DNA of 60,530 bases, taken from IMG/VR virus record IMGVR_UViG_3300042938_000567, positions 1 to 60,530 of that record. One strand, written 5' to 3'. Source of the DNA: a virus. Under the pieces are notes generated by a model. The model searched no databases, had not been told where the DNA came from, and saw only the letters and a program-made list of their open reading frames with translations. Positions 917 through 57,892 of the stretch are shown here, piece after piece (within the stretch, counting starts at the first letter, position 1; the number at the start of each line of letters is the position of its first letter). Position numbers and translations under genes: made by a program.

Positions 917-1132
917 TCAAGCGGTTATCTCAGGCTCAATAGGCCAATGCAACCCTTCTTTGGCTATCTGTGCTTCACACTCTTGTTGGGTTCCAACAAA
1001 CAATGTGCCTCCAGTTGCGATTGACTGATCTGTCTGTTCGTAAAACACTATTAGTTTATCGTGATATACTAATTTCCAATTCCCTACAGAAGCGTCATAC
1101 GACCAGCCATTTTCGTCAGGTGGGATTATCAT
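917..1132 (-). CDS. 71-residue fibre-cassette protein, copy 1
   Basis: Small soluble protein starting MIIPPDENGWSYDASVGNWK; paralogue of 54779-54994, with about two thirds of residues shared. Its start overlaps the stop of the upstream fibre gene by four bases (ATGA), so it is translationally coupled. The family is not recognised. Its fixed place between the autotransporter-repeat fibre and the collagen-like fibre in both cassettes suggests a fibre chaperone or accessory subunit, which is inference. Confidence 0.75.
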   Translation of the reverse strand: MIIPPDENGWSYDASVGNWKLVYHDKLIVFYEQTDQSIATGGTLFVGTQQECEAQIAKEGLHWPIEPEITA

Positions 1133-2004
1133 GGGACTGTTACTGCGAGAGTTGAGGTTGCTGAAGTGTAAGTTGCCGTTGTTCCTACTGGAACGCCTGT
1201 TAAGCTAATTACTCCCGGCGCGTAGGACTGAACAGTTGTTCCTTGGAAAAATCGAAAATTGGTTGTTGTTGCTGCTGGAGGAGAAACATTGAAAGCAACC
1301 GCCAAACTTGCATTTTGAAAAGTAGCTGTTGCTGTGGAAGCTCCAACAGTTTTTATAGTTCTGAGAAACCCTGCGGTGATTCCTGTAGACCCCGTATAGC
1401 TTAAAGTTCCGTTTAGGTGGAGTCTGCCAGTAGATGTTTTGCTAATACTTCCACTACCAGCGATTGAGCCGGGAATTGTTAATGTGATAGTTCCAGAAGC
1501 AACGCGGAATTGCAGAGAGTTACCAGTATTTATTTGAAAATTATTAGTCAGCGTTGACGTTGCGTTGCAAACTATTTGCGATGGGCCTGCTGAGGTGAAT
1601 AACCCAGTTCCAAAAGCATTGTTTTGCGAAAATGGAATTGTTCCTGTTGCCGCAGATGGTGCAGATAATGTTCCTCCCGAATAGGTATTGCTACCTCCAA
1701 TGGTTAAAGCTGTTGTTCCAGTCTTTGTAAGTGATCCTGCCCCGCTAATAACTCCATTCAAAGTCGATGCGCTTGAAATTGCAATTTGACCAGCATTGAT
1801 TTGGGTAGGCCCAGTATAGTTGCATACTCCAGAGAGCGTCAGTCCACCAATTCCGTTCTTTATTAAGCCAGTTGTTCCAGAAATTGCTGCTGAAATTGTT
1901 GTGCTTACATAGCACATGAAATGACGGAACGATGCCGTTGAAGATGCAATTGCATTTACATTGCTTACACCTACTTTTGCTGCGTTGGAATTAGTTAAAA
2001 TCAT
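1129..2004 (-). CDS. fibre protein with autotransporter-type beta-strand repeats, copy 1
   Basis: A 291-residue Gly/Ser/Thr-rich protein. Segments such as GGLTLSGVCNYTGPTQINAG and LTIGGSNTYSGGTL match the pattern of autotransporter-associated beta-strand repeats, which in bacteria build beta-helical passenger domains at the cell surface. No signal peptide or membrane beta-barrel is present, so here it is probably a beta-helical virion fibre. Paralogue at 54991-55854. It overlaps the stop of the upstream gene (2001) by four bases. Confidence 0.75.
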   Translation of the reverse strand: MILTNSNAAKVGVSNVNAIASSTASFRHFMCYVSTTISAAISGTTGLIKNGIGGLTLSGVCNYTGPTQINAGQIAISSASTLNGVISGAGSLTKTGTTALTIGGSNTYSGGTLSAPSAATGTIPFSQNNAFGTGLFTSAGPSQIVCNATSTLTNNFQINTGNSLQFRVASGTITLTIPGSIAGSGSISKTSTGRLHLNGTLSYTGSTGITAGFLRTIKTVGASTATATFQNASLAVAFNVSPPAATTTNFRFFQGTTVQSYAPGVISLTGVPVGTTATYTSATSTLAVTVP

Positions 2005-2588
2005 CCTACAATTATGTAAACTGTGTTAGAATTAATACCTGCTCCAAGTGCGTTGTACCCAGCTAATGTGATTTGCATCATGTTAGTCAAGGCAGTTGCT
2101 CCTGTTGCTCCGCTAATATTGCTACCAATCTTGCCGTTTAGAGCGGTCTGCGTAGCGGTTGAAATTGGTTTATTATCATCCGAGGTGTTGTCGCAATTGC
2201 CAAGACCAACATCAGTCTGGTCGATTGTAACTGCACCAGTTCTTGTATTAACTGAGGTTACTCCCGCGACACTTCCAGTAATGTCACTCAGCGTAGCTAT
2301 AGTACCAGATGCACTAGGTAGAACGAAAGTCTTTGTAGCACCTCCTGCCGTTATGGTGAGGTCGCTATTGTTTTGCAGTTCTAAGACCTGACTGCTATCA
2401 GGAGAATAAAGTTCGTCGTGCGAATGCACAGACATACCACCAATTTCTTGGATTGCACCCGTAGATGGATGCTTGGCATAGAGTTTTTTATCGGCGTGAT
2501 TTATGCAAATCTCACCAGCTGCAAGATCGGAACTCTGCGGAATTTTTGAGATAACCGATTTTTTAGGGACTATGATTGGATTAGCCAT
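2001..2588 (-). CDS. tail fibre protein (LAAGEICINHADKKLYAK type), copy 1
   Basis: 195 residues. The N-terminal MANPIIVPKKS plus SDLAAGEICINHADKKLYAK is the common start of phage fibres that attach to a baseplate or connector. The middle has the SGTIATLSDITG and VTSVNTRTGAVTI modules. The C-terminus GYNALGAGINSNTVYIIVG is the tip module that the paralogue at 56915-57892 lacks but the collagen-like fibre at 53226 carries, so tips have been exchanged. It follows a conserved hairpin at 2604-2630. Confidence 0.8.
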   Translation of the reverse strand: MANPIIVPKKSVISKIPQSSDLAAGEICINHADKKLYAKHPSTGAIQEIGGMSVHSHDELYSPDSSQVLELQNNSDLTITAGGATKTFVLPSASGTIATLSDITGSVAGVTSVNTRTGAVTIDQTDVGLGNCDNTSDDNKPISTATQTALNGKIGSNISGATGATALTNMMQITLAGYNALGAGINSNTVYIIVG

Positions 2589-2603
2589 TATGGAATGGGG
2601 TTG

Positions 2604-2630
2604 CCTCCAGAGGGGTTGAACCTCTGAAGG
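2604..2630 (-). other. intercistronic hairpin between fibre genes, copy 1
   Basis: Arms 2604-2613 and 2621-2630 pair over ten positions (one G-U in the transcript) around a seven-base loop. The same hairpin is at 57908-57934 in the duplicated cassette, fully paired there. There is no U-tract, so an RNA-processing or stability element is more likely than a terminator. Confidence 0.6.
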
Positions 2631-2646
2631 GCTTGGGGTTTAGGGA

Positions 2647-3264
2647 CTAGTAAGTTCCACCATCAATGGTGGTTTCAAGCGCAGTTACACGCGAATCGAG
2701 AGCCGAATCAGCCGATTGACGATCCGATACTTCGGAAGCCAACGCAGCGTTGTTGCTCGTTACATAACCAGCGAATGCAGAATCATTTTCCGTATCAACA
2801 GAATTGATCAAGGAAACGATTTCAGCAAACGAATCACTGTCTGCGCTTGCGGCAGAAAGGATTGCGTCGATGCGGCCTTTTTCAGTTGTGATTTTGCCGT
2901 CGAGGGCCGAATCAGCACTGGTGCGAGCGGAGGTTTCGGTAGCGAGATCGGAAGCGATAACGCCTTCAGCGGCGGTAGCGCGAGAAACTTCGGTAGCGAG
3001 ATCACTGGTTAGTGTGCTGTCAGCAGCAATACGAGCGGCTTGCTCTGCTGCGATAGCGGCAGTAAGCGTAGTGTTTGCATCAGAAACAGCGGAGTCAGCA
3101 TAAGCCTTGGTAGCGAATGTGCCTTCGCCGCCGACGATGAGTACTGATCCGTCAGCTTTACCGACGAAGAGGTTTTTATTGGTTAGGTCGATTGCCAACT
3201 CGCCAGAAGAAAGACTTGCGGGAGCGGAAGAACCACGTTTGATACGAATGATTGGGTTTGCCAT
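2647..3264 (-). CDS. coiled-coil tail fibre protein, copy 1
   Basis: 205 residues. The N-terminus MANPIIRIKRGSSAPASL-SSGELAIDLTNKNLFVGK is a recognisable fibre attachment module. The rest is an Ala/Ser/Asp-rich heptad-like repeat (AAEQAARIAADSTLTSDLAT), predicted to be a trimeric coiled coil. Paralogue at 57951-58622, one repeat longer. No Shine-Dalgarno; the start follows an A-rich leader. Confidence 0.8.
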   Translation of the reverse strand: MANPIIRIKRGSSAPASLSSGELAIDLTNKNLFVGKADGSVLIVGGEGTFATKAYADSAVSDANTTLTAAIAAEQAARIAADSTLTSDLATEVSRATAAEGVIASDLATETSARTSADSALDGKITTEKGRIDAILSAASADSDSFAEIVSLINSVDTENDSAFAGYVTSNNAALASEVSDRQSADSALDSRVTALETTIDGGTY

Positions 3265-3311
3265 ATATATTTTTGTTTTGTTTTTTGGTTTTTCTGGTTA
3301 TTCAGAAAGTT

Positions 3312-3488
3312 TTACTCTGGGGATGAGCTATATTCTCCAGCATCTATTTCAGCTACATTTGTAAGTTCGCCATTGTCTATTTGAGCAACAGAATTTCCAT
3401 TAGGCAATGTTCCATTTTCGCTGATTGTGAGCGAGGAACTAGGACTAAAGTCTAACTTGCCTGTAAATGGATTGAATCTAACTGCCAT
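3312..3488 (-). CDS. 58-residue NPFTGKLDF protein, copy 1
   Basis: Short ORF beginning [18 protein letters not shown] and ending in an acidic stretch (EIDAGEYSSSPE). The [11 protein letters not shown] start is the same module that opens the collagen-like fibres ([14 protein letters not shown]), so this looks like a fibre attachment peptide without a shaft. The paralogue at 58679-58852 keeps the frame and most residues, which supports real coding. Its ATG is three bases from the neighbouring stop. Confidence 0.7.
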   Translation of the reverse strand: MAVRFNPFTGKLDFSPSSSLTISENGTLPNGNSVAQIDNGELTNVAEIDAGEYSSSPE

Positions 3489-3491
3489 AAA

Positions 3492-3767
3492 TTAAGGGTA
3501 TGTTACAGTTATAGTCGTTAGATTTGCGTCATTAGTTGTCGGAGGATTAACTGAGTAGAACAAGTTTAATGTAGCTACTGGAACTCCAGCATTGAGGTAT
3601 TGCACTGTTGCAATGTTATTTGTAGTACCATAGTACGCAATATCAATCTGATCGTAGGCAGGAATATCAAATCCCGCGATCTGTTTTAGGGAATCGTAGA
3701 TATTAAAGTTCTGTTGATCTAGTGTTAGATCAACAAAGCAGGGTTGTGATAATGCTGGAGTAGCCAT
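3492..3767 (-). CDS. small beta-rich virion protein, copy 1
   Basis: 91 residues with the motif FDIPAYDQIDIAYYGTTNNIATVQY followed by VATLNLFYSVNPPTTND. Proteins with a YDxIxxxYxGxTNNIxTVxY pattern are common in phage structural regions; function unknown. Paralogue at 58854-59117. A perfect 16-bp palindrome (3775-3790) ends eight bases upstream of the ATG, where a ribosome-binding site would lie. Confidence 0.7.
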   Translation of the reverse strand: MATPALSQPCFVDLTLDQQNFNIYDSLKQIAGFDIPAYDQIDIAYYGTTNNIATVQYLNAGVPVATLNLFYSVNPPTTNDANLTTITVTYP

Positions 3768-3774
3768 AAGATTG

Positions 3775-3790
3775 TTATCGTTAACGATAA
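3775..3790. promoter_or_regulatory. palindromic site 1 (TTATCG-TTAA-CGATAA)
   Basis: Perfect palindrome between the stop of 3791-4054 and the start of 3492-3767, next to that start codon. Member of the genome-wide TTATCGKWWMCGATAA family. Confidence 0.8.
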
Positions 3791-4054
3791 TTAGGTAACA
3801 GGAAGCGCAGCAGCAACAGCTTCGTTAAGAACAAAGAGTTGTTGGTCTTCCGTTGTTTGCACAAAACAGTTTTCAGTTACTGGAGTAAGTGAGCCGATTG
3901 TAGCAAAAGCTAGATAGAATTGATAGAGTTTGGAAGCGTCACTAGCTGCATCAAAGCAACCAAAAGAAATTGGAGTAATACCAGCAGCAGCAGACACCGT
4001 AATCAGAAGTGGGTATAATTTATTGCGGTAAGGTAAGGATGTAAAGCAAGCCAT
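3791..4054 (-). CDS. hypothetical structural-region protein, 87 residues
   Basis: Begins MACFTSLPYRNKLYPLLITV; Ala/Thr-rich with three Cys. No family recognised. It has no counterpart in the second cassette. It lies between a head-region protein and the duplicated small beta protein, on the same strand, so it is probably virion-associated. Confidence 0.6.
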   Translation of the reverse strand: MACFTSLPYRNKLYPLLITVSAAAGITPISFGCFDAASDASKLYQFYLAFATIGSLTPVTENCFVQTTEDQQLFVLNEAVAAALPVT

Positions 4055-4072
4055 AATTTTAAAAAGGGTTAT

Positions 4073-4102
4073 GGGCAGGGAGGGTTAAAGACCTCCCTAC
4101 CC
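4073..4102 (-). other. intercistronic GC-rich hairpin
   Basis: Arms 4073-4083 and 4092-4102 pair over eleven positions with one wobble in the minus-strand transcript. No U-tract follows. It sits between 4119-4733 and 3791-4054. Confidence 0.6.
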
Positions 4103-4118
4103 AATAATGGGGAATTGG

Positions 4119-4733
4119 TTAGTAGTAGATACCAACAACGTAGGCGTTCACATAAAGTGCGCCAACACGTCCGGCAGTATCTGCACCAGAAACAACGTCA
4201 ACACCAGCGTTTGCATAGGTGAAGGTAGTTGCATTAACAACAATTACTTCAGCTTGCAAATCATCAAAGGTGCTATCGGTCATGCTGGCAATCGTGATGA
4301 CATCACCCGTGGAGAAACCATGAGCAAGTGCGGTAACGATTGTAGCAACGCCCGAAGTACGGGAACTAGTTGCGGTTGCTTGACCAGCACCAACAGTTGT
4401 CTTGTGAAGACGAACGCTACGGGAGCCAGTGACTACAGGAGCGTTAGCAAGCAAAGCCAATGTGTTTGATGTACCTTGGTTATCAAGAGCATCAGTGATG
4501 GTGAGTGAGGAGGTGATGTTTTCGCCAGTGGTTCCGTTGTCAACGATCACAATTGGATCGGTGGCAGTGGTTCCGCGAGCATAGGCAGTCTCCAATACGA
4601 TGCTTGTTGGAAAGAACTTAGTTTCTTGGTCATTAAGAACAAGAAGATTAGCGTCTCCAGCAGCGAGAAGGTTAACGGCAATCGGGCCAAAAAGGTTAAC
4701 CCGATCATAAGCGAGTGGTCGTGAATTAGACAT
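4119..4733 (-). CDS. putative capsid-associated (decoration-type) protein
   Basis: 204 residues following capsid-like protein 1. The N-terminal half is Asp/Thr-rich. The C-terminal half has ATIVTALAHGFSTGDVITIA followed by ATTFTYANAG, a beta-sandwich module seen in many phage structural proteins. A head decoration or minor virion role is inferred from position and from this module. No second copy follows capsid-like protein 2. Confidence 0.6.
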   Translation of the reverse strand: MSNSRPLAYDRVNLFGPIAVNLLAAGDANLLVLNDQETKFFPTSIVLETAYARGTTATDPIVIVDNGTTGENITSSLTITDALDNQGTSNTLALLANAPVVTGSRSVRLHKTTVGAGQATATSSRTSGVATIVTALAHGFSTGDVITIASMTDSTFDDLQAEVIVVNATTFTYANAGVDVVSGADTAGRVGALYVNAYVVGIYY

Positions 4734-19004: not shown

Positions 19005-19739
19005 ATGAAATATCAGTTATGGCGCAAGTATTGTAAGAAATACATTTCATTGGTTAAATCTTCACAGATTGAAAATGAGGAGTTGATGGAAAAACATCAT
19101 ATCTTCCCTCAAAGTATATTTGGTAAAAATAAAATAATAGTTTCACTTACTCCCAGACAGCATTTTGTGGCACATAAGTTGTTGCATAAGATTTTTCTTT
19201 TTAGAAATGGCGGAAATTCTACAAGGTGTTTTAAAATGGCAAAAGCATTTTGCTGGATGCAAACAAGAAATTGTGTGCAGTTTAACTCAAGAAGATATGA
19301 GTTTTGCAAAAAAATGAGGAGTGAATCAATGCGGGGACAAAATAACCCATTTAAAAATTCAAAATCATTTTCAGCAGAACATAAGAGAAAAATTAGTGAA
19401 TCACTTTTTAAAAACCCTCCAATGAAGGGTAAAAAACATTCTGATGAAACAAAATCAAAAATAAGTAAATCATTGCAAGGAAGAACTTTTATTCATTCTG
19501 AAGAAACAAAAAGAAAAATATCAGAAAAAAATAAAGGAAGAGAAATATCCGAAAAAACCAAAATCGCAGTTAGTGAAAGTAATAAAAAAAGAAAAGGTTC
19601 TAAAAGAACAATTGAAACAAAAGAAAAAATGAGAAATGCACAAATAAATAAACCAAAAGTTAAGTGCCCTTATTGCAATACTATTGGACATTATGCAGCA
19701 ATGGGCAGATGGCATTTTAATAATTGTAAATCAAAGTGA
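19005..19739 (+). CDS. HNH homing endonuclease with NUMOD3-type repeats
   Basis: 244 residues. HNH-like core KHHIFPQSIFGKNKIIVSLT with FVAHKLLHKI, then three or more NUMOD3-type DNA-binding repeats (HSDETKSKISKSLQGR, HSEETKRKISEKNKGR) and a C-terminal zinc finger (CPYCNTIGHYAAMGRWHFNNC). Strongly A/T-rich. Its stop overlaps the start of the glycosyltransferase gene, whose original 5' end is stranded upstream at 18933-18974. Confidence 0.8.
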   Translation: MKYQLWRKYCKKYISLVKSSQIENEELMEKHHIFPQSIFGKNKIIVSLTPRQHFVAHKLLHKIFLFRNGGNSTRCFKMAKAFCWMQTRNCVQFNSRRYEFCKKMRSESMRGQNNPFKNSKSFSAEHKRKISESLFKNPPMKGKKHSDETKSKISKSLQGRTFIHSEETKRKISEKNKGREISEKTKIAVSESNKKRKGSKRTIETKEKMRNAQINKPKVKCPYCNTIGHYAAMGRWHFNNCKSK

Positions 19740-20848: not shown

Positions 20849-21387
20849 GCTTTGAATCTGAATACTGGGGAGACTGCTGTAATACCTTCGACGAGGATCA
20901 GAAACACTACGTCTATGCCCAGTACATGGGAATAATGACAGTAGGGTATTCGTTCTCTATGTCAGGGAAGTCGGTAGTAGACATAGGGGGAGGGCCAACT
21001 TCGATGTTACTTAAAACAACTAACCTAGGAAAAGGGTTGGTTGTCGATCCGCTACTATATCCACAATGGACTTACGCTAGGTACGATGCTAAGAAAATAG
21101 ATTGCTTAGTCATCAGAGGGGAAGATTTTATCGGTAACGATAAATTCGACGAAGCGTGGATTTACAATTGCCTCCAACACACAGACGACCCAGAGCTAAT
21201 AATCCAAAACGCAAAACGCGCAGCTAAGATAGTCAGACTCTTTGAATGGGTAGACATCCCACCCCACGAAGGTCATCCCATAGAACTCACAAAAGAAAAC
21301 CTAGACCAATGGTTAGGTAAGGAAGGCAGTACAACCCAACTAGCAAGAGCAGGCTGCTACGGAAAAGCCTACTACAATATAGTATGA
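20845..21387 (+). CDS. SAM-dependent methyltransferase-like protein
   Basis: 180 residues. KSVVDIGGGPTSMLL is a class I motif I and GLVVDPLLYPQW resembles the following acidic loop. EAWIYNCLQHTDDPELIIQN matches the post-motif region of small-molecule methyltransferases. It is coupled to the glycosyltransferase by a four-base overlap, suggesting a shared sugar or surface modification. A palindrome lies inside at 21128. Confidence 0.65.
   Translation: MSFESEYWGDCCNTFDEDQKHYVYAQYMGIMTVGYSFSMSGKSVVDIGGGPTSMLLKTTNLGKGLVVDPLLYPQWTYARYDAKKIDCLVIRGEDFIGNDKFDEAWIYNCLQHTDDPELIIQNAKRAAKIVRLFEWVDIPPHEGHPIELTKENLDQWLGKEGSTTQLARAGCYGKAYYNIV
21128..21143. promoter_or_regulatory. palindromic site 7 (TTATCG-GTAA-CGATAA)
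   Basis: Perfect arms inside the methyltransferase-like gene. Confidence 0.75.
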
Positions 21388-21773
21388 ACTGGGACGAATA
21401 CGCTATGAGTATAGCTGAGGTAGTAGCTAAGAAAAGCAAAGACCCGTGGAGACAAGTCGGGGCAGTCATACTCAGAGAAGACAATTCAATAGCCTCAGTA
21501 GGCTACAACGGATTCCCCCAAGGTATAGAAGAAGACTGGTCAGACAGAGATGAAAGAAGAAAGTACGTCATCCACGCAGAACAGAACGCCCTCAGATACA
21601 CCCAACCCGGCGAAGGAAAGACACTCTGCTCCACATTACTACCATGCTCAGACTGCTTAAAGACCCTAGTAGCCTATAAGATAAAAAGAGTTATCTACAA
21701 AGATATCTACCAAACAGACCCCACCGCCCTAGTCACAGCAGAAAAAATGGGAGTCACCCTAATCCAATTATGA
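21384..21773 (+). CDS. deoxycytidylate (dCMP) deaminase
   Basis: 129 residues. Zinc and catalytic motifs HAEQNAL (His64, Glu66) and PCSDC (Cys88, Cys91), with the N-terminal WDEYAMSIAEVVAKKS helix of the family. It converts dCMP to dUMP for dTTP synthesis during phage replication. Overlaps the methyltransferase-like gene by four bases. Confidence 0.85.
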   Translation: MNWDEYAMSIAEVVAKKSKDPWRQVGAVILREDNSIASVGYNGFPQGIEEDWSDRDERRKYVIHAEQNALRYTQPGEGKTLCSTLLPCSDCLKTLVAYKIKRVIYKDIYQTDPTALVTAEKMGVTLIQL

Positions 21774-22067: not shown

Positions 22068-22141
22068 TACTACTAACCCTATTCATAGCCTACCTACTCT
22101 ATCTCATGTACACCACCAATCATGATCTAGATGGTTACTAG
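22064..22141 (+). CDS. 25-residue membrane micro-peptide
   Basis: MILLTLFIAYLLYLMYTTNH; one hydrophobic helix with a polar tail. Third in the ATGA-linked chain and the last gene before the non-coding region. Confidence 0.45.
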   Translation: MILLTLFIAYLLYLMYTTNHDLDGY

Positions 22142-22883
22142 CAAATAAAGGGATGGTTACATCCCAGTATTGACAGGGTATTTTAGGGGTTTGTGTAGAT
22201 AAAGAGGAGTTTCTGGATTTGGGAGGCTCGCGAGTTTGGGCTGTGTGGGGAGTCCACCCATGCCCTCAGTCTCCAGCCACAAAGAGATTCCTTTAAATGC
22301 TAGGCCACGCTGCACCTAGTTTGATCTGCCCCCTCTCGCTGTCCCGCCTGCTTAGTTTGATTATGTCCCGCCTGATCTTGGCGTGGAATAATCTTTGCCG
22401 ATAGTGTCCGGGCTGTCGCGTGATTGGCTGGCTGGCTGGCTGGCTTATCGTGTCGCATCGAATGTGGCGAGATCGTGACAATGTGAGGCATGAGAGAATA
22501 GGGTGCGAGATTTGCAGAAATAGGCATTTGCTATTTAGTGCAGCGATGCCGTGATTTTGGCTCATGTTGTAAAAAAGGCTACTTTGCTGTATATAGCGAG
22601 ACCGAGCCAGAAAAACATCGCGCTAGAATGGCGCTGGTGACCTTTGTTTGAGTGGAGCTGTGTATTGTCATTGCCTGATTTCGCTCTTATATTCATATAT
22701 CGGTCTATAGCGATATATCGTTGGAACATGACATATCATAATATTCGAATATGTGAATACGTTACTTTGCTTGCTATGTTTCCCCGTGTTTTTTGTATGG
22801 CATGATATGTGCTAATACTTTTCTATTTACAAGCTGGCATAGTTCCTGCTTATGGGGGCTTAAAATAAAACAACATTTGGGTG
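22142..22883 (+). other. long non-coding region, possible origin or control region
   Basis: No convincing ORF. Contents: a TTGACA at 22170; direct repeats TAGTTTGAT and TGTCCCGCCTG, each twice (22317-22375); a five-fold GGCT run (about 22421-22442); and an A/T-rich part (22685-22760) with CGATATATCG and ATATTCGAATAT palindromes. Direct repeats followed by an A/T-rich segment resemble a replication origin. The minus-strand frame at 22293-22565 looks non-coding. Confidence 0.45.
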
Positions 22884-22911
22884 TTGACATATTCAATACT
22901 TAGTGTATTCT
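22884..22911 (+). promoter_or_regulatory. promoter of the accessory gene cluster
   Basis: TTGACA (22884-22889), 16-base spacer, TATTCT (22906-22911). Upstream of a 100-base leader and the genes from 23014 on. The best match to a sigma-70 promoter in the window. Confidence 0.6.
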
Positions 22912-23013
22912 CTCTCTCGTGATGTTCGTTGAGTGGCTCTGAATGAGCCTTAGCGGACAACTTCACAAATTGATCTTTGAAGAAAAAAACTTTTGCACCT
23001 GTCTTTTGATAGG

Positions 23014-23196
23014 ATGCGAACCAATCCAAACCTTGACGCTTTCGAGCGTCTCACATTAGAAAATCACATGACAATCATCAATCACATCCTATCCCTTCCT
23101 GTGTCAGATGACACAATAAACCTTGCTCTAATATGCGCGGCTCTCGTAGTCGTGCGCGTTGGGCTTTCCATCGTTCTTCACAATCTTTCCCGCTAA
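23014..23196 (+). CDS. 60-residue protein with C-terminal membrane helix
   Basis: From the ATG at 23014, MRTNPNLDAFERLTLENHMT, then INLALICAALVVVRVGLSIV, a hydrophobic helix. An in-frame TTG at 22993 and an internal ATG at 23068 are alternatives. Function unknown. Confidence 0.45.
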   Translation: MRTNPNLDAFERLTLENHMTIINHILSLPVSDDTINLALICAALVVVRVGLSIVLHNLSR

Positions 23197-23198
23197 TT

Positions 23199-23540
23199 AT
23201 GACAACAACAAATAACATCACCCTTGGTTCAGTAATTCATGGCACACATCGAAGTGAAGATTTGCTCAGTGCATTCCTGTTTGCCTTAGAAGATATTAAA
23301 TCTCCCGCTGCCGCGAGATACAATGCAGAGCTTATTGAGCTTGGTTTTGGTCATTCAATGTGCGGGGTTTGCGGGATGGGAAATCGTGAGGAATGGCCAG
23401 AGGGGTTTGATGAGCATATAGCGCAGGAAATCATCTCTGAAATGATGGACGCTTTAAATGATCATGCGCCGGATGGCTATTATTTCGGTGTTCATCTCGG
23501 CGATGGTTCGGACTTTGGATTCTGGAAATGTGAAGAGTAA
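23199..23540 (+). CDS. hypothetical protein, 113 residues
   Basis: The start MTTTNNITLGSV at 23199 is chosen because the 22 preceding codons are a shadow of the upstream gene. CGVCGMGNREEWPEGF could bind metal. The C-terminus DGYYFGVHLGDGSDFGFWKC resembles small proteins of plasmid and phage accessory regions. Richer in G/C than the virion genes. Function unknown. Confidence 0.6.
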   Translation: MTTTNNITLGSVIHGTHRSEDLLSAFLFALEDIKSPAAARYNAELIELGFGHSMCGVCGMGNREEWPEGFDEHIAQEIISEMMDALNDHAPDGYYFGVHLGDGSDFGFWKCEE

Positions 23541-23623
23541 AATCGAAACGGGTTCGCCCGTCTTTGCACCTTGGCAAGTGCAGACTGAAGAGAAAGCCAA
23601 AAACTAACTAGAATAATACGAAA
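23541..23623 (+). promoter_or_regulatory. leader with two short hairpins
   Basis: ACGGGTTCGCCCGT and TGCAC-CTTGGCAA-GTGCA form hairpins ahead of the gene at 23624. CTTTGCACCT echoes TTTTGCACCT upstream of the gene at 23014. Possibly a shared leader element. Confidence 0.35.
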
Positions 23624-23989
23624 ATGAAAATGACACTTAATACCTACCAAATAGCAGATGAGTTGAAGCGCGACACTTGCGCCCGCTGGTCTTACAATGG
23701 CTCACTTGCCCTTGCGGAATACCTTGAGGAATATGAGGCCGATAGTGGAGAGGAAATGGAGCTGGACACTTGCGCGATTCGTTGCGACTTCTCCGAACAT
23801 TCCTCCCTCTTAGAATGGGCGCGGGAACATTTCGGCACTACGAACATGGTCGGGGAGTTTTCCATTGAATCAAGTGAAGATGAAGAGGACGTTGACCCCG
23901 AAGGAACGGACGCTAAGATCAAAGCATACATTCAAGACCACGGGACACTCATTGAGTTTGAAGGCGGAGTTATCGTTTCATCGTTTTAA
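23624..23989 (+). CDS. acidic hypothetical protein (ALAEYLEEYE/IRCDFSEHSS type)
   Basis: 121 residues, strongly acidic. ALAEYLEEYEADSGEEMELD, AIRCDFSEHSSLLEWA and TLIEFEGGVIVSSF form a pattern found in small phage and plasmid proteins, sometimes listed as antirestriction-like because of their acidity. This is not a clear ArdA or Ocr protein, so a DNA-mimic role is only a possibility. Confidence 0.6.
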   Translation: MKMTLNTYQIADELKRDTCARWSYNGSLALAEYLEEYEADSGEEMELDTCAIRCDFSEHSSLLEWAREHFGTTNMVGEFSIESSEDEEDVDPEGTDAKIKAYIQDHGTLIEFEGGVIVSSF

Positions 23990-23993
23990 TCCT

Positions 23994-24104
23994 ATGACTA
24001 CCTTCGACAAAATAGCTGTCTTCTCAATCTTCGCTGTCTTTGCTTATGGGATGTTTTCCCTATTCGTTGCCTTCTCAAAATATGTGGAAAGGTTCGGACT
24101 ATGA
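23994..24104 (+). CDS. 36-residue single-pass membrane peptide
   Basis: MTTFDKIAVFSIFAVFAYGM, then FSLFVAFSKY: one long hydrophobic helix. It overlaps the next ATG by four bases. Upstream in-frame codons are a shadow of the previous gene. Confidence 0.5.
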   Translation: MTTFDKIAVFSIFAVFAYGMFSLFVAFSKYVERFGL

Positions 24105-24295
24105 AAAAGCTCTCCAAAGAATATTATTGGGAACTCGCGCAGTTTTGCATGGATTATCACGGCGGCCAATGGTCGCGGGGTTATCGGCTCATGTGTCGAT
24201 TGCGTCCCGCTAATTTCTCCTCCTCACTCTCTGAAGAGTTGAGAGAGTCCGAGGCTTATATGTGGCTTGTGGATAATTACGCGAGCAAAATCTAA
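24101..24295 (+). CDS. hypothetical protein, 64 residues
   Basis: MKKLSKEYYWELAQFCMDYH; basic and aromatic-rich, helical. Last gene before the terminator at 24308. No family recognised. Confidence 0.55.
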   Translation: MKKLSKEYYWELAQFCMDYHGGQWSRGYRLMCRLRPANFSSSLSEELRESEAYMWLVDNYASKI

Positions 24296-24307
24296 TCCCT
24301 CCACATT

Positions 24308-24342
24308 GCGGGGCGGTTCTATCCCTCCCCGCTTTTCTTCTT
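24308..24342 (+). terminator. rho-independent terminator
   Basis: GCGGGG (24308-24313) pairs with CCCCGC (24327-24332), followed by TTTTCTTCTT. It ends the accessory cluster that begins at 22884. Confidence 0.8.
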
Positions 24343-24419
24343 AATTGGCGATTCCTGCCCTTTTCAGCCCTTCACCTTATCATTCACCTTCCGATTCCTC
24401 CGCCGCACTTTGCGCGGTT

Positions 24420-24435
24420 TTATCGGTTCCGATAA
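24420..24435. promoter_or_regulatory. palindromic site 8 (TTATCG-GTTC-CGATAA)
   Basis: Perfect arms, intergenic, between the terminator and the 3' end of 24468-25043. Confidence 0.75.
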
Positions 24436-24467
24436 TCTTTCCCTCCACAACCCACTTTTCACTCATG

Positions 24468-25043
24468 TCACTCTGTATCCAATTTCGCGTTATTTTCCAA
24501 GCCCTCCACCGCATCGACATATTGCGTGGACACAATTTCGACTTTATCCGCTTTCGTCGGGCCGCTGACGTGCAGGGAAATCATCGCGTTTACAGATAAA
24601 CCTTTCTTATCGTGCATATTATTCTCATCCAATCCCAGCGCACGTGTCGCGATTTTCTCATATTCCGCAAGCACGTCCAGACGTTGCGCCTGATCTTTAA
24701 TGTTTCCCGATTTGTGTCTCGTCTCAATCTGCACCCTCTCCGCCGCAATCTCTCTCAGCATAAACGCATAATGGGCAATCGTTTCGCTTGCCATTGCGTC
24801 CTCCAACTTCGGAGCGACCACATTTGCCACTTCTTCCCTCAGCCGTTTCCGCTTGTCTATCCACTTACCTTTGACCATGCAGTTCTTCAAATAGAACTTA
24901 GACATGAGGCTAAACTCTGGCAGCTTCAAAATGTCACTCATCTCCGCTCCACCCATGAATAACGATTCAATCTTATCCATGTCCCACTTTTTACGCTGTC
25001 CACGGCCTAGCGTTTTCGCATCCAACTCTGGCGTTTTGTTCAT
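24468..25043 (-). CDS. putative terminase small subunit
   Basis: 191 residues, opposite in strand to its neighbours. An N-terminal helix-turn-helix-like region (about 20-60, WDMDKIESLFMGGAEMSDIL, then KGKWIDKRKRLREEV) is followed by a helical oligomerisation region and an Arg/Lys-rich middle, as in small terminase subunits that recognise phage DNA. It is far from terL. A TTGACA on the minus strand at 25073-25078 may drive it. It could instead be another HTH regulator. Confidence 0.45.
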   Translation of the reverse strand: MNKTPELDAKTLGRGQRKKWDMDKIESLFMGGAEMSDILKLPEFSLMSKFYLKNCMVKGKWIDKRKRLREEVANVVAPKLEDAMASETIAHYAFMLREIAAERVQIETRHKSGNIKDQAQRLDVLAEYEKIATRALGLDENNMHDKKGLSVNAMISLHVSGPTKADKVEIVSTQYVDAVEGLENNAKLDTE

Positions 25044-25115
25044 ACTTTACTATTGCCAAAATTCTGCCAGATTGTCAACAGATTTCCCTCCACAACACAA
25101 CAACACAACACAACA

Positions 25116-25343
25116 ATGAAAAATACAATGAGAACAATAGACAAAGCAATCATCGACCAAATACGCGGAACCGAAACACGCCACACCATCAGGCTTACAA
25201 ATTGCCTAGATGGTTATGAGACTTGCATCCTGTTAGATCAGGAATGCGGGGATATGTGCATTATCCAATCCTATGATAACAAGATAACGACCACGCACAT
25301 TGATGAAAACGAAGTTGCAGCCCTTAAATCTGTCCTACTATGA
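25116..25343 (+). CDS. hypothetical protein, 75 residues
   Basis: The ATG at 25116 (MKNTMRTIDKAIIDQIRG) follows a long ACAACAC-type A-rich leader. Beta-rich (HTIRLTNCLDGYETCILLDQ). It overlaps the next gene by four bases. No family recognised. Confidence 0.55.
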   Translation: MKNTMRTIDKAIIDQIRGTETRHTIRLTNCLDGYETCILLDQECGDMCIIQSYDNKITTTHIDENEVAALKSVLL

Positions 25344-25750: not shown

Positions 25751-25923
25751 GAACACATACCTTACACAAGCAGAAGCCGTTCAGAGTTAAGAATACTTAC
25801 CTCGCTGATCCAGTTCGTAGAGAGATTGTCGATGCCCTGCAAGCGGTTGTCGATACATTCGGGGATTCTGATTCTCTCCTAGCCCTCCAATGCAGGTCAG
25901 CCCTACTTAAAGCGAAACAATGA
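25747..25923 (+). CDS. 58-residue hypothetical protein
   Basis: MRTHTLHKQKPFRVKNTYLA, then a helix (VRREIVDALQAVVDTFGDSD). Its stop overlaps the ATG of the helicase by four bases, suggesting coupled expression. Confidence 0.55.
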   Translation: MRTHTLHKQKPFRVKNTYLADPVRREIVDALQAVVDTFGDSDSLLALQCRSALLKAKQ

Positions 25924-27542
25924 ACGTCCACGATCTACTGGCAACGGTTGAATGGTCACATCCCATTCAACTAAATACGAAAAGAGGGGTCAGACTCCTC
26001 CGCAAAGCTCCCATTGAGGATGCTTTCTGGAAGGTCTACAAGATCGACCGAGAGCTATTCAAAGAGCAACTGGCAGCGGCTGGCATCTCTATGGGTAAAT
26101 TCAGAGACGAGTGGGCGTTGTCTTGGTGGTCAGATGAAAACCTCAAGTTCAAGTCCGTAATCGGTTCCGATAATGTTGAGGAGAAAGTTGAAGAACTTAA
26201 TCTAATCCCTCTGCTGCATCCCGAAAATCTCTTTGAATACCAGCAAACCTCTGTTCAGATGGGGGTGGCTAGTATGGCTAAATACAACCGAGTCCTGCTT
26301 GGACATTCCACGGGTGTAGGAAAGACCTTCTGTGCTTTAGGTATTGCTAGAGAGTTGGGTAAACGGGTCGCGGTGATCTGTCCATTAGCTGTTGTTACCT
26401 CATGGCACAGGGCAGCAAAAATGATGAATGTTGAGGTTTACGAAGCCGTTGGTTGGGAATTTTGCAAAACTGGAAAATCAAAAATTGGAAAATGGACTTG
26501 CGAATCTAAAAAGAGATTTGAATACCAACTTCCAGATGATGTCATTCTTATATTTGACGAAGCCCACAGAGGCAAAGCTCCGGGAACTTCTCAAAATTCT
26601 TTTTTGATTAGAGATAGCGTCATGCAAAATATTCAAGCTATGGCATTGAGCGCAACCATTGCGGATTCTCCAGAAAAACTTTGGGCCTTAGGTCAATTCC
26701 TTGGATTGCATCAAGGTGGAAAGGATTATTTTAGATTTCTATCTGCAAACGGTTGCAGAAAGACAAGATTTGGATTTCAGTTTCAAGGTGGAAGCGCAAT
26801 ACTTAAACGACTTCATCATAAGATTTATCCAGAAAGAGGAAATCGTTTAAGACATAGTGATTTGGGAGATGCCTTTCCAGAAACACTTATTCACGCAAGA
26901 GCTTTTGATATGGAAAATGCCCGTGCCATTGCATCAGAATATGATGAATTGTGCAATAGGGTAGAGGAACTTAGAATGGCAGAGAATTTTAGCGCGAACG
27001 TGTTAGCCGAACAAACGCGAGCGAGGCAAAAAATTGAGCTTTTAAAGGCTCCTGTAATAGCTTCACTAGCTAAAGATTATATTGAAGAAGGAAATAGCAT
27101 TTTTATTGCGGTATCATTTCGTGAAACTATGCAGTTTTTAATGAAAGAACTTAATACAGATGCTGTCATTTGTGGGGGTCAATCAAAAATGGAAAGGCAA
27201 GGAGCAATAGATTCTTTTCAAAGAGATGCAACGCGAGTAATTATAGGAATATCAGCAGCTTGTAGGGAAGGTATTTCATTGCATGATTTAAACGGGAAAC
27301 ACCCTAGAGTTGCGTTAATATTTCCTCAACCATCAGCATACGATTTAAAACAAGTATTGGGTCGCGTTCACCGTGCTGGTGGAACAACAAAAAGTCTTCA
27401 ATACATAATATATGCAGCGGGTGTTGCCATTGAAGAAAATACCTGCAATTCCCTTGATAGAAAATTAAAAAACATGGATTTGATTGCAGATGGGGAGATA
27501 GACCCATCAATTTCATTATCTACCATAAAAAATATCTTGTAA
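25920..27542 (+). CDS. SF2 (SNF2-like) DNA helicase
   Basis: 540 residues. Motif I GHSTGVGKT (Lys135), motif Ia ICPLAVVTSWHRA, motif II DEAH (213-216), motif III LSATIA, and the second domain with FIAVSFRETMQF, REGISLHDLNG and QVLGRVHRAG. Likely in replication, recombination or repair. Base composition shifts to A/T-rich at about 26430 and stays so to the end, next to a homing endonuclease gene. Confidence 0.85.
   Translation: MNVHDLLATVEWSHPIQLNTKRGVRLLRKAPIEDAFWKVYKIDRELFKEQLAAAGISMGKFRDEWALSWWSDENLKFKSVIGSDNVEEKVEELNLIPLLHPENLFEYQQTSVQMGVASMAKYNRVLLGHSTGVGKTFCALGIARELGKRVAVICPLAVVTSWHRAAKMMNVEVYEAVGWEFCKTGKSKIGKWTCESKKRFEYQLPDDVILIFDEAHRGKAPGTSQNSFLIRDSVMQNIQAMALSATIADSPEKLWALGQFLGLHQGGKDYFRFLSANGCRKTRFGFQFQGGSAILKRLHHKIYPERGNRLRHSDLGDAFPETLIHARAFDMENARAIASEYDELCNRVEELRMAENFSANVLAEQTRARQKIELLKAPVIASLAKDYIEEGNSIFIAVSFRETMQFLMKELNTDAVICGGQSKMERQGAIDSFQRDATRVIIGISAACREGISLHDLNGKHPRVALIFPQPSAYDLKQVLGRVHRAGGTTKSLQYIIYAAGVAIEENTCNSLDRKLKNMDLIADGEIDPSISLSTIKNIL
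26158..26173. promoter_or_regulatory. palindromic site 9 (TAATCG-GTTC-CGATAA)
   Basis: One arm mismatch; inside the SF2 helicase gene. Confidence 0.6.
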
Positions 27543-27573: not shown

Positions 27574-28500
27574 ATGAAACTAAAGCGAGGCACAGAAAGA
27601 GAAGATGGAATGATCTTTTGGAACTATGATAGTAAAGCATTAAATGGAGAATATTGGGTTTCAAAAGAAAGATTTGCACATTTACAACTATGCAAAAAGA
27701 AAAGATTAAAATCAAAGATAGAATTATTTAATCAAAAAACACAGAAACTTGTTAGAGGAGCAATGCGTGAAGATGGAATGATCTTTTGGGGATACCACCC
27801 AGATTGTAAGTTTGGTGAAAAGTGGATGTCAGAATATGACTTTAATAAAAAGAAATTAGATAAACAGAATAAAATATTAAAAGCTAAAGAATTAAATGGA
27901 GTATTGAAACGCGGAGACACAAGAGATGATGGTATGATTTTTTTGTGTTATTCTCCAAGTAACGCGACTGCAGAAAGGTGGGTTACAAAAAAAGCATTTG
28001 AGAATCTAAAAATAAAACAAAAAGTCGCATCTAAAAAATTTTATTGGAAGAATCCAGAGAACGGTAAAAGGCAAACAAGAAAATGGAGACTCAATAATCT
28101 TAATGCTGGAAAAGAATATTTTCAGAAAAATAAAAAAGAAATTTATGATGCCAGAAATAAACGGATAAAAGGCAATCCATTATTAGCTTTAAGAATGAAT
28201 ATTCATAACAACATTAAAAATTCCATATCAAAACTATCTTATACAAAAAATACAAAGACAGCACAAATTCTTGGTTGTTCATTTGAAGAATTGAAGGTTC
28301 ATATTGAATCTCAATTCAAAGAAGGGATGTCATGGGAAAATCGCAATCTTTGGCATATCGACCATATCATGCCAGTTTCAATGGCTAAAACATACGACGA
28401 AGTTGTTAGGTTGAATCACTACAGAAACCTTCGTCCGCTTTGGGCGCATGAGAACCTTGCTAAATCAGACAAGACTCCAGATACACTTGTTTTATTCTAG
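27574..28500 (+). CDS. HNH homing endonuclease with three REDGMIFW repeats
   Basis: 308 residues. Three tandem repeats of about 55 residues carry RGTEREDGMIFWNY, RGAMREDGMIFWGY and RGDTRDDGMIFLCY, each ending in G/A-E-x-W-V/M. A C-terminal HNH domain follows (WHIDHIMPVSMAKTYDEVVR, then NHYRNLRPLWAHENLAKSD). The repeats are probably DNA-reading modules. A/T-rich, following the helicase gene. Confidence 0.8.
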   Translation: MKLKRGTEREDGMIFWNYDSKALNGEYWVSKERFAHLQLCKKKRLKSKIELFNQKTQKLVRGAMREDGMIFWGYHPDCKFGEKWMSEYDFNKKKLDKQNKILKAKELNGVLKRGDTRDDGMIFLCYSPSNATAERWVTKKAFENLKIKQKVASKKFYWKNPENGKRQTRKWRLNNLNAGKEYFQKNKKEIYDARNKRIKGNPLLALRMNIHNNIKNSISKLSYTKNTKTAQILGCSFEELKVHIESQFKEGMSWENRNLWHIDHIMPVSMAKTYDEVVRLNHYRNLRPLWAHENLAKSDKTPDTLVLF

Positions 28501-54778: not shown

Positions 54779-54994
54779 TCAAGCGGTTATCTCAACCTCA
54801 ACAGGCCAAGACAATCCTTCTTTCACTATCTGTTTTTCGCACTCTTCATGCGTTCCCACAAACAATGTGCTTTGAGTTGCGATTGACACGTTGGTTTCTT
54901 CGTAAAAGATAATTACTTTGTCCGCATAGACCAATTTCCAGTTGCCTGTAGAATCATCGTATGACCAACCATTTTCGTTTGGAGGAATTATCAT
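54779..54994 (-). CDS. 71-residue fibre-cassette protein, copy 2
   Basis: MIIPPNENGWSYDDSTGNWK; paralogue of 917-1132 in the same place, again overlapping the upstream fibre gene by four bases. Function unknown. Confidence 0.75.
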   Translation of the reverse strand: MIIPPNENGWSYDDSTGNWKLVYADKVIIFYEETNVSIATQSTLFVGTHEECEKQIVKEGLSWPVEVEITA

Positions 54995-55854
54995 GGGACT
55001 GTTACTGCGAGAGTTGAGGTTGCAGAAGTATAGGTTGCTGTAGTTCCAACTGGAACACCAACCAAGGTTACTGATGGGTATGAATTTGTTGTTGATCCTT
55101 GGAAAAAACGAAATGTTGTTGTTCCAGATGGAGGTGAAACATTAAACGAAACTGAAAGACCAGTAGTAAATGATGCCGTTGCTGTTGATGCTCCAGTTGT
55201 TTTTAAGGCACGGAGCGTTCCAGCACTAATCGTTGTTGAACCTGTGTAACTCAAAGTTCCGTTTAATCGAAGCTGCCCTGTTGATGTTTTGCTAATACTT
55301 CCGCTACCAGCAATATTACCCGGAATTGTTAGTATAACCGTCGCGACATTAACGCGGAATTGCAAAGATTGTGCGGCATTTATTTGGAAATCATTTGATA
55401 GCGTTGATGTCGCAGTACAAACTATTTGCGATGGCCCAGCAGATGTAAACAACCCTGTTCCAAAAGCGTTATTTTTCGAAAATGTAATTGTGCCTGTTGC
55501 CGCAGATGGAGCAGATAATGTTCCTCCCGAATAGGTATTGCTACCTCCAATGGTTAAAGCTGTTGATCCAGCTTTTGTTAGCGATCCTACTCCGCTGATT
55601 ACTCCATTCAAAGTTGATGCGGATGTAATTGCAAGAGAGCCAGCATTGATTTGAGTTGGCCCAGTATAGTTGCAAATTCCCGAAAGAGTCAGTCCACCAA
55701 TCCCGTTTTTGATTAAACCAGTTGTGCCAGTAATAGCGGTTGAGATTGTTGCGCTTAGATAGCACATAAACTGACGAAAAGATGCCGTTGAGGACGCTAT
55801 TGTGGTTGCATTGCTTGCCCCTACTTTTGCTGCGCTGGAATTAGTTAAAATCAT
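54991..55854 (-). CDS. fibre protein with autotransporter-type beta-strand repeats, copy 2
   Basis: 287 residues; paralogue of 1129-2004 with the same LIKNGIGGLTLSGICNYTGP and NTYSGGTLSAPSA repeats and the same C-terminus (PVGTTATYTSATSTLAVTVP). Protein identity is higher than DNA identity, so selection has kept the fold. Confidence 0.75.
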   Translation of the reverse strand: MILTNSSAAKVGASNATTIASSTASFRQFMCYLSATISTAITGTTGLIKNGIGGLTLSGICNYTGPTQINAGSLAITSASTLNGVISGVGSLTKAGSTALTIGGSNTYSGGTLSAPSAATGTITFSKNNAFGTGLFTSAGPSQIVCTATSTLSNDFQINAAQSLQFRVNVATVILTIPGNIAGSGSISKTSTGQLRLNGTLSYTGSTTISAGTLRALKTTGASTATASFTTGLSVSFNVSPPSGTTTFRFFQGSTTNSYPSVTLVGVPVGTTATYTSATSTLAVTVP

Positions 55855-56282
55855 GCAACGATTATAAGTTGAGTGATTGCTTCTTGCACAACGACATCAA
55901 ATGCAAATGGAGCGGAAGGCCATGTAGAGGTGACTGCATTTGGATTGAATGCTGCGGCAAGCGTAATTTCATCAAGCCATTGTCGGATAGCCGTGAGCTT
56001 CGGGGATGTTCCACCTTTGGAACGCAGTTTGCCTTCAAGGTCAAGGCAAGTTAGGAGGCGTAACGGGGTATAGGCTTGGTTTTCTAACCATTCTTCAGCC
56101 GTGTATGTGGGAGCGGAAGGGGTGATCCATTCTCCGTTTCCCCATGTGCAGTTGTCGCTAGGTTTGTCTGGGAGCGGGGCGTAGTCGTTGGCCTTGGGGT
56201 TGCCGTTTGCGGCCCATGCGGCGAGTGTTTCTGGCGCGAGGGTGACGAGTTCGTTGGTGGTGAGGTTATAGTAATTAGGCAT
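55851..56282 (-). CDS. 143-residue fibre-cassette protein
   Basis: From the ATG at 56282 (MPNYYNLTTNELVTLAPETL), overlapping the LamG-like gene stop by eight bases. It contains NCTWGNGEWITPSAPTYTAE and a helical C-terminal half (RLLTCLDLEGKLRSKGGTSP). Absent from cassette 1. No family recognised; probably a fibre assembly or connector protein. Richer in G/C than its neighbours. Confidence 0.6.
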   Translation of the reverse strand: MPNYYNLTTNELVTLAPETLAAWAANGNPKANDYAPLPDKPSDNCTWGNGEWITPSAPTYTAEEWLENQAYTPLRLLTCLDLEGKLRSKGGTSPKLTAIRQWLDEITLAAAFNPNAVTSTWPSAPFAFDVVVQEAITQLIIVA

Positions 56283-56913
56283 AAACGCGAGGATGGTTGG
56301 AGACGGTTGTGCTGGTATCTGTGAGTGCGGTTCCAGACATGACATCTTGGGTTTCTCTGACAAGCGGAATGTATGAAACAAGTTTGTCTGGACGCACCTT
56401 GTCGGGTGTCATTCCTTTGGCAATCGCGGCGACATCAGCACCTGACAATGCTTCCTGCCAAAGACCATATTCCGCGAAATCACCCGATGACCAGTAGTTG
56501 CCAGTTTCGGAGCGACCAAACCTAAGATTATTAATTCCCGCGTTATTTGATGTTGTGCTGGGTATTGTTAGATTAAAGCCTAGCGTAAGCAGACTTCCGT
56601 TTCTGTATAATTTCATTCTGTTTGAGTTACCTGTGAGCGATCCATCGAACACAAGAGCAAAATGATTCCATCCAGTAATGTTTTGAGCTACAAAAGCGTA
56701 TGAATTAGAATTATTTGCAACCACCGGATACAAAACATTATCCGAATAATGTGTTATAACAAAGCCATTGTTTACGACATCAGTAAAACCAACATTCTGT
56801 ATAGTTCCGCTCGTTGGCCTACGAATCCAACATGACATAGTAAGCTTTTGCTGGTTCTTGTGAACCGTATAGCTCCCGCTGATCTGCTGGTTGGTTGCAA
56901 ATGCCCGAGCCAT
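56275..56913 (-). CDS. LamG/concanavalin-like virion protein
   Basis: 212 residues with LTMSCWIRRPTSGT, WNHFALVFDGSLTGN, MKLYRNGSLLTLGF and LRFGRSETGNYWSSGDFAEY: the strand order of LamG/laminin-G-like lectin domains, which bind sugars. Present only in cassette 2, where it probably adds a glycan-binding fibre part. Confidence 0.7.
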   Translation of the reverse strand: MARAFATNQQISGSYTVHKNQQKLTMSCWIRRPTSGTIQNVGFTDVVNNGFVITHYSDNVLYPVVANNSNSYAFVAQNITGWNHFALVFDGSLTGNSNRMKLYRNGSLLTLGFNLTIPSTTSNNAGINNLRFGRSETGNYWSSGDFAEYGLWQEALSGADVAAIAKGMTPDKVRPDKLVSYIPLVRETQDVMSGTALTDTSTTVSNHPRVYA

Positions 56914-56914
56914 A

Positions 56915-57892
56915 TCAAGCCGCGCTCCTTACTTCGACAGAGATCAACTCGGCATCGCCCGTCATTGTGTCGTTGACGGCATCGCTGCCAACGCGAGAAA
57001 TTCGGAGACGGTAAGGTTCACCGACTGTCACGTTGTCGATGGTGGTCAGAGTGATGCTGGTCGTGGTGGGAATGCCGCTCGTTGCGTTTGCGGCTCCGTT
57101 TGCCTCGGTGGCGGTGTCGAATGAGTCTGCATCGAGATCGGTGTTACCACGTTCTAATGCTACTCTCCAGCGCACATTTCCGCTTGTTGCGGTGGTTGCC
57201 ATCCAAGTAACCCTTACGCTCAAACCGCTTGTTAAATTAGCGGATTCGGGGATGATTGCTGGGAATGTTGCGCTCTCAATGGTAGCAGCATCAAAATCGA
57301 GGACAGTTATGGAATTTCGTGTGTCTAGCGTTGCAAACAAAGTTGACGGCGGGTTATTATCGCGGGGAGCAAAAATAGCAAAAGTTTTCGTGCCAGAGGC
57401 TCCTGTAAGATTAGGATGAGATGTGCTGGCCTTTCCGTCAAGAGCCGTTTGAGTAGCCGTAGAAATCGGTTTATTTGAATCAGATGTGTTGTCAATATTG
57501 CTAAGTCCAACATCTGTTTTATCAAGTGTCACCGCTCCTGTGCGTGTATTAACTGATGTTACTCCAGATGCGCTTCCACTAATGTCGGAAAGCGTAGCAA
57601 TCGTACCAGATGCACTAGGAAAAGTGAAAGTTTTTGTAGAACCTCCTGCTGTTATTGTGAGGTTTCCGTTGTTTTGCAGTTCTAATAATTGACTGCTATC
57701 GGGGGAATAAATTTCGTCGTGCGAATGCACAGACATACCACCAATTTCTTGGATTGCACCCGTGGATGGATGCTTGGCATAGAGTTTTTTATCTGCGTGA
57801 TTTATGCAAATCTCACCAGATGCAAGGTCTCCGTTTGCAGGAACCCGCGCAGCAATTGTGCTTTTTTTAGGGACTAGGATTGGATTAGCCAT
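56915..57892 (-). CDS. tail fibre protein (LASGEICINHADKKLYAK type), copy 2
   Basis: 325 residues. The first 160 match 2001-2588. After that the GYNAL tip is replaced by a 150-residue beta domain (VRVTWMATTATSGNVRWRVA, then LTTIDNVTVGEPYRLRISRV). A clear case of tip replacement between paralogues. Confidence 0.8.
   Translation of the reverse strand: MANPILVPKKSTIAARVPANGDLASGEICINHADKKLYAKHPSTGAIQEIGGMSVHSHDEIYSPDSSQLLELQNNGNLTITAGGSTKTFTFPSASGTIATLSDISGSASGVTSVNTRTGAVTLDKTDVGLSNIDNTSDSNKPISTATQTALDGKASTSHPNLTGASGTKTFAIFAPRDNNPPSTLFATLDTRNSITVLDFDAATIESATFPAIIPESANLTSGLSVRVTWMATTATSGNVRWRVALERGNTDLDADSFDTATEANGAANATSGIPTTTSITLTTIDNVTVGEPYRLRISRVGSDAVNDTMTGDAELISVEVRSAA

Follow-up and report, generated by a model that had tools for sequence, protein, structure and literature searches.

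The 60,530 bases of a linear IMG/VR virus record (the window, meaning this whole stretch) contain at positions 23014–24342, the region under study, a run of small genes set between a promoter and a terminator. This arrangement raises the question of whether the genes are a moron, i.e. a cassette of foreign origin, equipped with a promoter and a terminator and gained as a unit, or belong to a locus that a group of phages has in common. The parts of the region and of its flanks are:

21384–21773, plus strand: dcd, a dCMP-deaminase-like gene (named by eye), the conserved left flank.
22143–22883, no strand: non-coding stretch 5' of the promoter, with partial conservation among close relatives.
22884–22911, plus strand: sigma70-type promoter TTGACA-16-TATTCT, from sequence and conserved position.
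22915–23050, plus strand: leader RNA of about 120 nt, from alignment, covariation, energies and a covariance model.
22919–22966, plus strand: hairpin I of the leader, with a 3-nt bulge.
22972–22980, plus strand: boxA-like GATCTTTGA, between hairpins I and II.
22992–23020, plus strand: hairpin II of the leader.
23035–23050, plus strand: a further hairpin, read by eye.
23068–23196, plus strand: gene A, 42 aa, probable membrane peptide (by eye), placed by homologue starts.
23199–23540, plus strand: gene B, 113 aa, acidic, phrog_29605, a swapped-in gene whose phage family is scattered.
23541–23623, plus strand: linker with two hairpins, right border of the B slot, preceding gene C.
23624–23989, plus strand: gene C, 121 aa, phrog_9974, strongly acidic, candidate DNA mimic.
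23994–24104, plus strand: gene D, 36 aa, probable membrane peptide (by eye).
24101–24295, plus strand: gene E, 64 aa.
24297–24305, plus strand: CCCTCCACA motif, between the last gene (E) and the terminator.
24308–24336, plus strand: intrinsic terminator GCGGGG...CCCCGC + TTTT.
24441–24449, plus strand: CCCTCCACA motif; relatives have further small-gene cassettes directly after it.
24468–25043, minus strand: gene F, 191 aa, the conserved right flank.
25086–25094, plus strand: CCCTCCACA motif, intergenic, between the divergent genes F and 25116.

The first-pass annotation had described five small genes, and A–E are indeed small plus-strand open reading frames. The acidic protein it had listed among them is C (net charge −21.2), and B is acidic too (−15.0); its two membrane peptides correspond to A and D, which read so by eye. 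It had started the first gene at the ATG at 23014. This ATG falls in the 3' arm of the conserved hairpin II, and homologues of A in five other records (L034 and L036 among them) begin at the equivalent of 23068, so that the gene stands and is probably 42 aa long, with its start at 23068. The cluster had also been thought to have a higher G/C content than the virion genes. Its G+C content is 0.466 versus a mean of 0.447 (sd 0.045, 31 genes), a difference with P = 0.18, the chance for a random coding stretch of equal length, and base composition was discarded as evidence for a foreign origin.

Relatives were collected in IMG/VR with a gene C search (29 loci) and a search with the flanking gene F (17 loci). 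Twenty-four records, window included, have the flanks in common, and two of these are duplicates here (L010 of L009, L035 of L034), leaving 22 non-redundant records. Large terminase identity across the group is 83–100% in near-full-length matches (20 of the 24 records, several of them fragmentary), and the terminase has no relatives at E ≤ 1e-5 among 50,697 phage records. The interval from dcd to F measures 2.7–5.0 kb in all 20 non-redundant records that span both flanks, the window having the shortest, and an empty site with dcd and F adjoining occurs in none of these 20. Upstream of the promoter, the approximately 740 nt at 22143–22883 are without a convincing gene and contain ATATATCG-type palindromes; blastn blocks with 68–80% identity to this stretch were found in L002, L003, L004, L007, and L012. 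Among the five closest relatives (L031, L032, L033, L034, and L036), dcd and F are 93–99% identical where present, while genes of the same locus reach 65–70% (C) and 67–92% (D), B is absent, and E is found in two of them at 95–97% identity. In this freshwater phage the region forms a fixed accessory-gene locus, common to its group, and not a one-off moron. It is not the sole variable place in these genomes, since the helicase at 25920–27542 also is just 76–80% identical in the close relatives; the genes next to the helicase are mostly 92–100% identical, which marks it as a second exchanged gene.

Gene presence was scored per record by tblastn (E ≤ 0.01, 22 non-redundant records). Gene C was found in 18 records, A and D in six each, E in four, with the other three copies 89–97% identical to that of the window, and B in one; L038, among the four lacking C, is truncated by the end of its contig. 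Rough gene calling across all intervals gave many more small families. A core conserved in all relatives with matching composition, the alternative raised at first pass, describes the locus and its leader and, for the most part, C (18/22), and does not describe A, B, D, and E. The borders of one exchange can be read directly. Behind A, the window reads CCCGCTAATT|ATGACAAC and then B, and L002 and L004 have the same left border with another gene (family f18) behind it; the right border of this A–C slot, AAAATCGAAACGGG and a hairpin before C, is common to the window, L002, and L004. The linker before C was found in 8 of the 18 C-bearing records, the distant L009, L040, and L046 among them, and no common fold emerged across all 18. 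Downstream of the terminator the window reads CCCTCCACA|ACCCACTTTTCACTC, where L002, L004, and L007 insert a further small-gene cassette directly behind an identical or nearly identical CCCTCCACA motif. Exchange of gene sets takes place at conserved linkers, with one slot between constant borders.

Libraries of known families returned little for the exchanged genes. Pfam gave no family for A–E at E ≤ 1; in PHROG, B and C match unknown families alone and D has a weak match (E 0.17). Ten proteins from the intervals of relatives gave no Pfam match at E ≤ 0.01, and the PHROG labels 'ferredoxin' and 'DNA ligase', which appear among the matches for four of these ten, were not relied on. None of the payload genes was named as a known defence inhibitor in the libraries searched. 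The B family, with 44 viral loci, none of them within this group, and with relatives in Pseudomonas phage KPP25 and other phages, has a conserved end, YFG..x.GDG...G.W; the predicted B model is of middling quality (pLDDT 76.1) and gave no convincing fold match. One of 34 B family members matched an NCBIfam model for a methanogenesis protein (E 0.0002), which we took as chance. Gene E had no matches outside the group in the phage collection.

The strongly acidic gene C allowed a closer comparison. The protein of the window has a pI of 4.1, and strong negative charge, as in ArdA, is a property of all 26 homologues considered (net charge −17.3 to −28.2). Pattern and tblastn searches gave at least 341 viral relatives, of which 80 were kept; among those with an annotation, proteins of Microcystis phages come closest (32–37% identity). 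The AlphaFold2 model of C is fair (pLDDT 82.4), and ArdA (2w82) ranked first with it in two structure comparisons. Foldseek gave E 0.55 at a probability of 0.33; VIA-align gave a Z of 4.7 over 99 residues with an rmsd of 5.5 (next 3.5), the tool itself calling Z values such as 4.7 common. The structure match spans C residues 1–120 versus ArdA residues 48–164. With hhalign against 12 ArdA proteins, C 28–73 aligned to ArdA 75–127 in the register of the structure match (E 0.051, probability about 1%), and with 74 C sequences a neighbouring segment aligned (E 0.034, probability 1–1.5%). As good a C–ArdA profile alignment was produced by 3 of 150 column shuffles; the global alignment was no better than shuffles (76/150). 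In Pfam, ArdA (PF07275) was matched by none of the 26 C homologues at E ≤ 1, and the 11 families that were matched are inconsistent, each being hit by 1–3 of the 26 with a best E of 0.0033. Three BFVD entries matched at E ≤ 0.001, and none of them has a known function. For ArdA as the identity of C, fold, profile, and shuffles are no more than suggestive and their scores not significant, and we therefore term C a candidate DNA mimic with an ArdA-like mode of action and not an ArdA member. On the strength of its charge and modelled fold, C may possibly act as ArdA does, as a protein that mimics DNA. Stand-alone ArdA parts inhibit type I restriction (antirestriction activity), according to a section of PMC12548430.

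Transcription of the locus is framed by two signals, both of which had been proposed at first pass. The promoter at 22884 is borne out by its spacing to the leader motif, the end of the best promoter's −10 box lying 59–62 nt 5' of the same RNA motif in 18/21 leaders (a raw count without shuffle control). Its credence derives from this conserved spacing and not from the motif scan, which found 6 promoter-type sites versus 12.2 expected from shuffles and whose count gives no weight. The terminator at 24308 likewise held, with a hairpin of −15.2 kcal/mol and a compensatory change in L004; it was unlisted by the motif scan because the scan accepts loops of 3–8 only. The leader begins at about the 5' end of the transcript, as given by the promoter position, and the first gene after it belongs to different families in different records.

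In all 21 aligned leaders hairpin I is followed by an unpaired stretch, which in nearly every case contains G(A/C)TCTTTGA, and then by hairpin II. Several columns of the boxA-like unpaired stretch are invariant or nearly so, and hairpin II is present in 21/21 single folds. Within the leader alignment (A1), 80.5% of cells pair and 16 of 26 pairs are changed on both sides. The covariation score is 0.397 versus 0.249 in shuffles (sd 0.015), 0/500 of which reached it, and slid partners scored at most 0.165. Counted per helix, pairing reaches 98.8% and 91.4% of cells for hairpin I and 65.1% for hairpin II, whose arms MAFFT aligns poorly; the RNAalifold consensus is limited to hairpin I, with 13 pairs of which 8 carry double changes. 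Mean z values of the folding energy versus dinucleotide shuffles are −2.91 for hairpin I, −3.87 for hairpin II, and −3.03 for the whole leader (21 leaders). A covariance model (R1) has a single strong match per record, at E ≤ 8.2e-17, in 23 of the 24 group records, the exception, G014, being a sequence that ends before the leader. Since the model was built from 21 of these same leaders, which match by construction, the match counts show copy number and group restriction, not independent discovery; L069, outside the training set, carries the leader too. Fifteen other C-bearing records gave no leader match better than E 0.02, and a strict leader pattern run across viral contigs returned a single record, already a group member. 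Rfam searches came back empty both across the window at gathering scores and over 22100–25120 at E ≤ 5. The leader is a newly seen conserved RNA without an Rfam entry, and a shared group feature rather than cargo; no published description of the locus with its leader was found in the open-licence PMC literature.

By analogy with nut and put sites or rRNA leaders, the transcribed hairpin I and boxA-like sequence, perhaps together with hairpin II, would modify RNA polymerase. The modified polymerase would read through the hairpins sitting between the swapped genes, and any inserted gene would then be expressed without a promoter of its own. We put forward this read-through role of the leader tentatively. 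The gammaproteobacterial boxA consensus is GYTCTTTAANA (from the part of PMC5725501 that treats it), and the site here, which reads GATCTTTGA in the window and GCTCTTTGA in some relatives, departs from this consensus, which may not be that of the host, by A to G late in the core.

Clues to the host came from several searches. The C search of genome contigs returned one locus, L069, which belongs to the same phage group and lies in a bin labelled Cellvibrio; it is a 3.6-kb contig holding this phage locus with its leader, and the bin label may be a binning error. Among rRNA leaders of the genus Cellvibrio, an ordinary boxA (GTTCTTTAACAG) was found in two loci of one genome (L070, L076), and the other loci of the genus with a 16S start left the boxA pattern unmatched in the bases examined. 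A terminase search of genome contigs gave 34 pattern stretches, none of them confirmed, and the best matches of DnaB were weak (28.5%), with Akkermansia phages first by coverage. SD-like sequences were found at 5/37 listed gene starts of the whole window (one gene being listed with two starts), and the host is therefore probably not reliant on SD.

The right part of the locus is marked by the one-way motif CCCTCCAC/CCCTCCACA. On the plus strand, CCCTCCAC occurs 93 times in the intervals plus 750 nt of the 22 records (98,289 nt) and not once across the other 242,602 nt of those loci, with three copies in all in the other orientation; it is the most enriched 8-mer. Nineteen whole records (two of them duplicates here) have 91 copies, 10 outside the locus and two inside it reversed, versus five occurrences of a backward-read control pattern. 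The window has four copies, all within 24297–25093. Many copies are inherited with homologous genes and are thus not independent events. All copies examined lie downstream of C and none in the leader; they precede terminators or CAA-rich gene leaders, or sit within some of the small genes, within the 3' part of F, and beside the promoter of F. Starts of homology blocks fall near CCCTCCAC at a rate of 0.16 versus 0.056 by chance (largest of 200 null runs 0.082), and block ends at 0.042 versus 0.056, record pairs not being independent; the block ends go against a simple joint model. CCCTCCAC may be a binding site of F, a regulator site, or an exchange joint. F itself had no family or solved-structure match, its sole PHROG row being portal (E 0.019 in 2/14 members), and it resembles a small terminase by eye only.

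Some observations concern other parts of the window. An Endonuclease VII/HNH-like gene (phrog_1035) at 27574–28500 has the opposite orientation in L003/L032 and L041 and is probably mobile. Two similar minus-strand gene sets lie near the record ends at 917–4733 and 54779–60380 (starts e.g. MIIPPDENGWSYD, MIIPPNENGWSYD) and form a duplicated module, perhaps of host-binding genes. At 19005–19739 there is an AT-rich ORF (GC 0.29) with an HNH-like motif, seen by eye, and a 40% match in L016 only, and a plus-strand open frame at 463–834 is built of repeated peptide units.

Taken together, we interpret the region as a fixed locus in which a conserved promoter and leader precede an exchanged, host-directed payload of small genes, with the leader perhaps giving terminator resistance, and assign this reading a probability of roughly 0.55. 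The payload probably consists of early anti-host genes; they would be active soon after infection begins, with counter-defence as the likeliest function, and the content is also compatible with host takeover. In a more far-reaching version, which we consider unlikely, the promoter and rRNA-leader-like RNA would form a cassette platform with protein-free terminator resistance, the CCCTCCACA repeats and hairpin linkers would be the exchange joints, and small counter-defence genes of any kind would be expressed immediately on insertion into the locus. Acquisition as a true moron is very improbable and largely refuted. Promoter, small genes, and terminator do make a unit, and B is missing from all other group records, so that the first-pass reading keeps a self-contained promoter-to-terminator accessory unit of variable content. 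A strict moron is nevertheless unsupported, because no empty site was found in the 20 records with both flanks, composition is ordinary, and promoter and leader are common to the group; the parts of the unit, moreover, differ independently between relatives.

Variable small-gene regions are common in phages, and the locus could be an ordinary variable early region whose leader merely stabilises the mRNA or tunes its translation, e.g. by blocking 5' decay or binding a phage protein, with no antitermination. That the leader begins at about the 5' end of the transcript fits such a role, as does the imperfect boxA match for the lack of antitermination; yet conservation of the unpaired boxA-like stretch equals that of the helices, more than a hairpin serving only to stabilise would call for, and we regard this explanation as rather unlikely. 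Less probable still is that the leader region lies within a replication origin or packaging site, with F as initiator or small terminase recognising CCCTCCAC and the small genes incidental. The direct one-way copies cluster around F in the 22 records and adjoin its promoter, and F is small-terminase-like by eye, but it lacks a family or solved-structure match, the CCCTCCAC copies are downstream of C and not in the leader, and the leader shows covariation of RNA type with G-U pairs. If the preferred reading, a fixed locus with an exchanged host-directed payload, is true, each gene behind the leader in other phages of the group would be a counter-defence candidate, and the leader and flanks would permit collecting them. 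The leader would possibly represent protein-free antitermination outside the lambdoid phages, and the one-way motif array raises the question of how phages swap small genes so exactly.

Known systems resemble the locus in parts. Like phage morons and accessory regions, it has its own promoter and terminator and non-essential-looking genes; unlike morons, it has no empty site, its composition is ordinary, and its promoter and leader are common to the group. Gene C is small and highly acidic, like ArdA and small ArdA (sArdC), and ArdA 2w82 is its best solved-structure match, whereas at about 120 aa it is longer than sArdA and shorter than ArdA, and it has no Pfam ArdA match. Mycobacteriophage stoperators, in the portion of PMC9283540 that describes them, are many short asymmetric sites in one orientation. 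The CCCTCCAC copies are likewise numerous, short, and in one orientation, but are confined to one 3-kb locus where stoperators are genome-wide. rRNA leaders and lambda nut sites offer a further comparison. In rRNA leaders, boxB, boxA, and boxC directly follow P2 (passages of PMC10250234). The order promoter, hairpin, and boxA-like sequence, seen here in 18/21 leaders at 59–62 nt, is the same as in rRNA operons, with the difference that the core departs from the gammaproteobacterial boxA, from which the host's own boxA may also differ. The putL site of HK022 adjoins its early promoter downstream as a structured RNA of two stem-loops, and put RNA is a leader able to act alone in protein-free antitermination (both from a section of PMC9378689). 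The window shares with HK022 put a structured two-hairpin RNA immediately 3' of the promoter; put, however, is about 70 nt long with adjacent stems, while the hairpins of the window are 25 nt apart and enclose a conserved boxA-like stretch.
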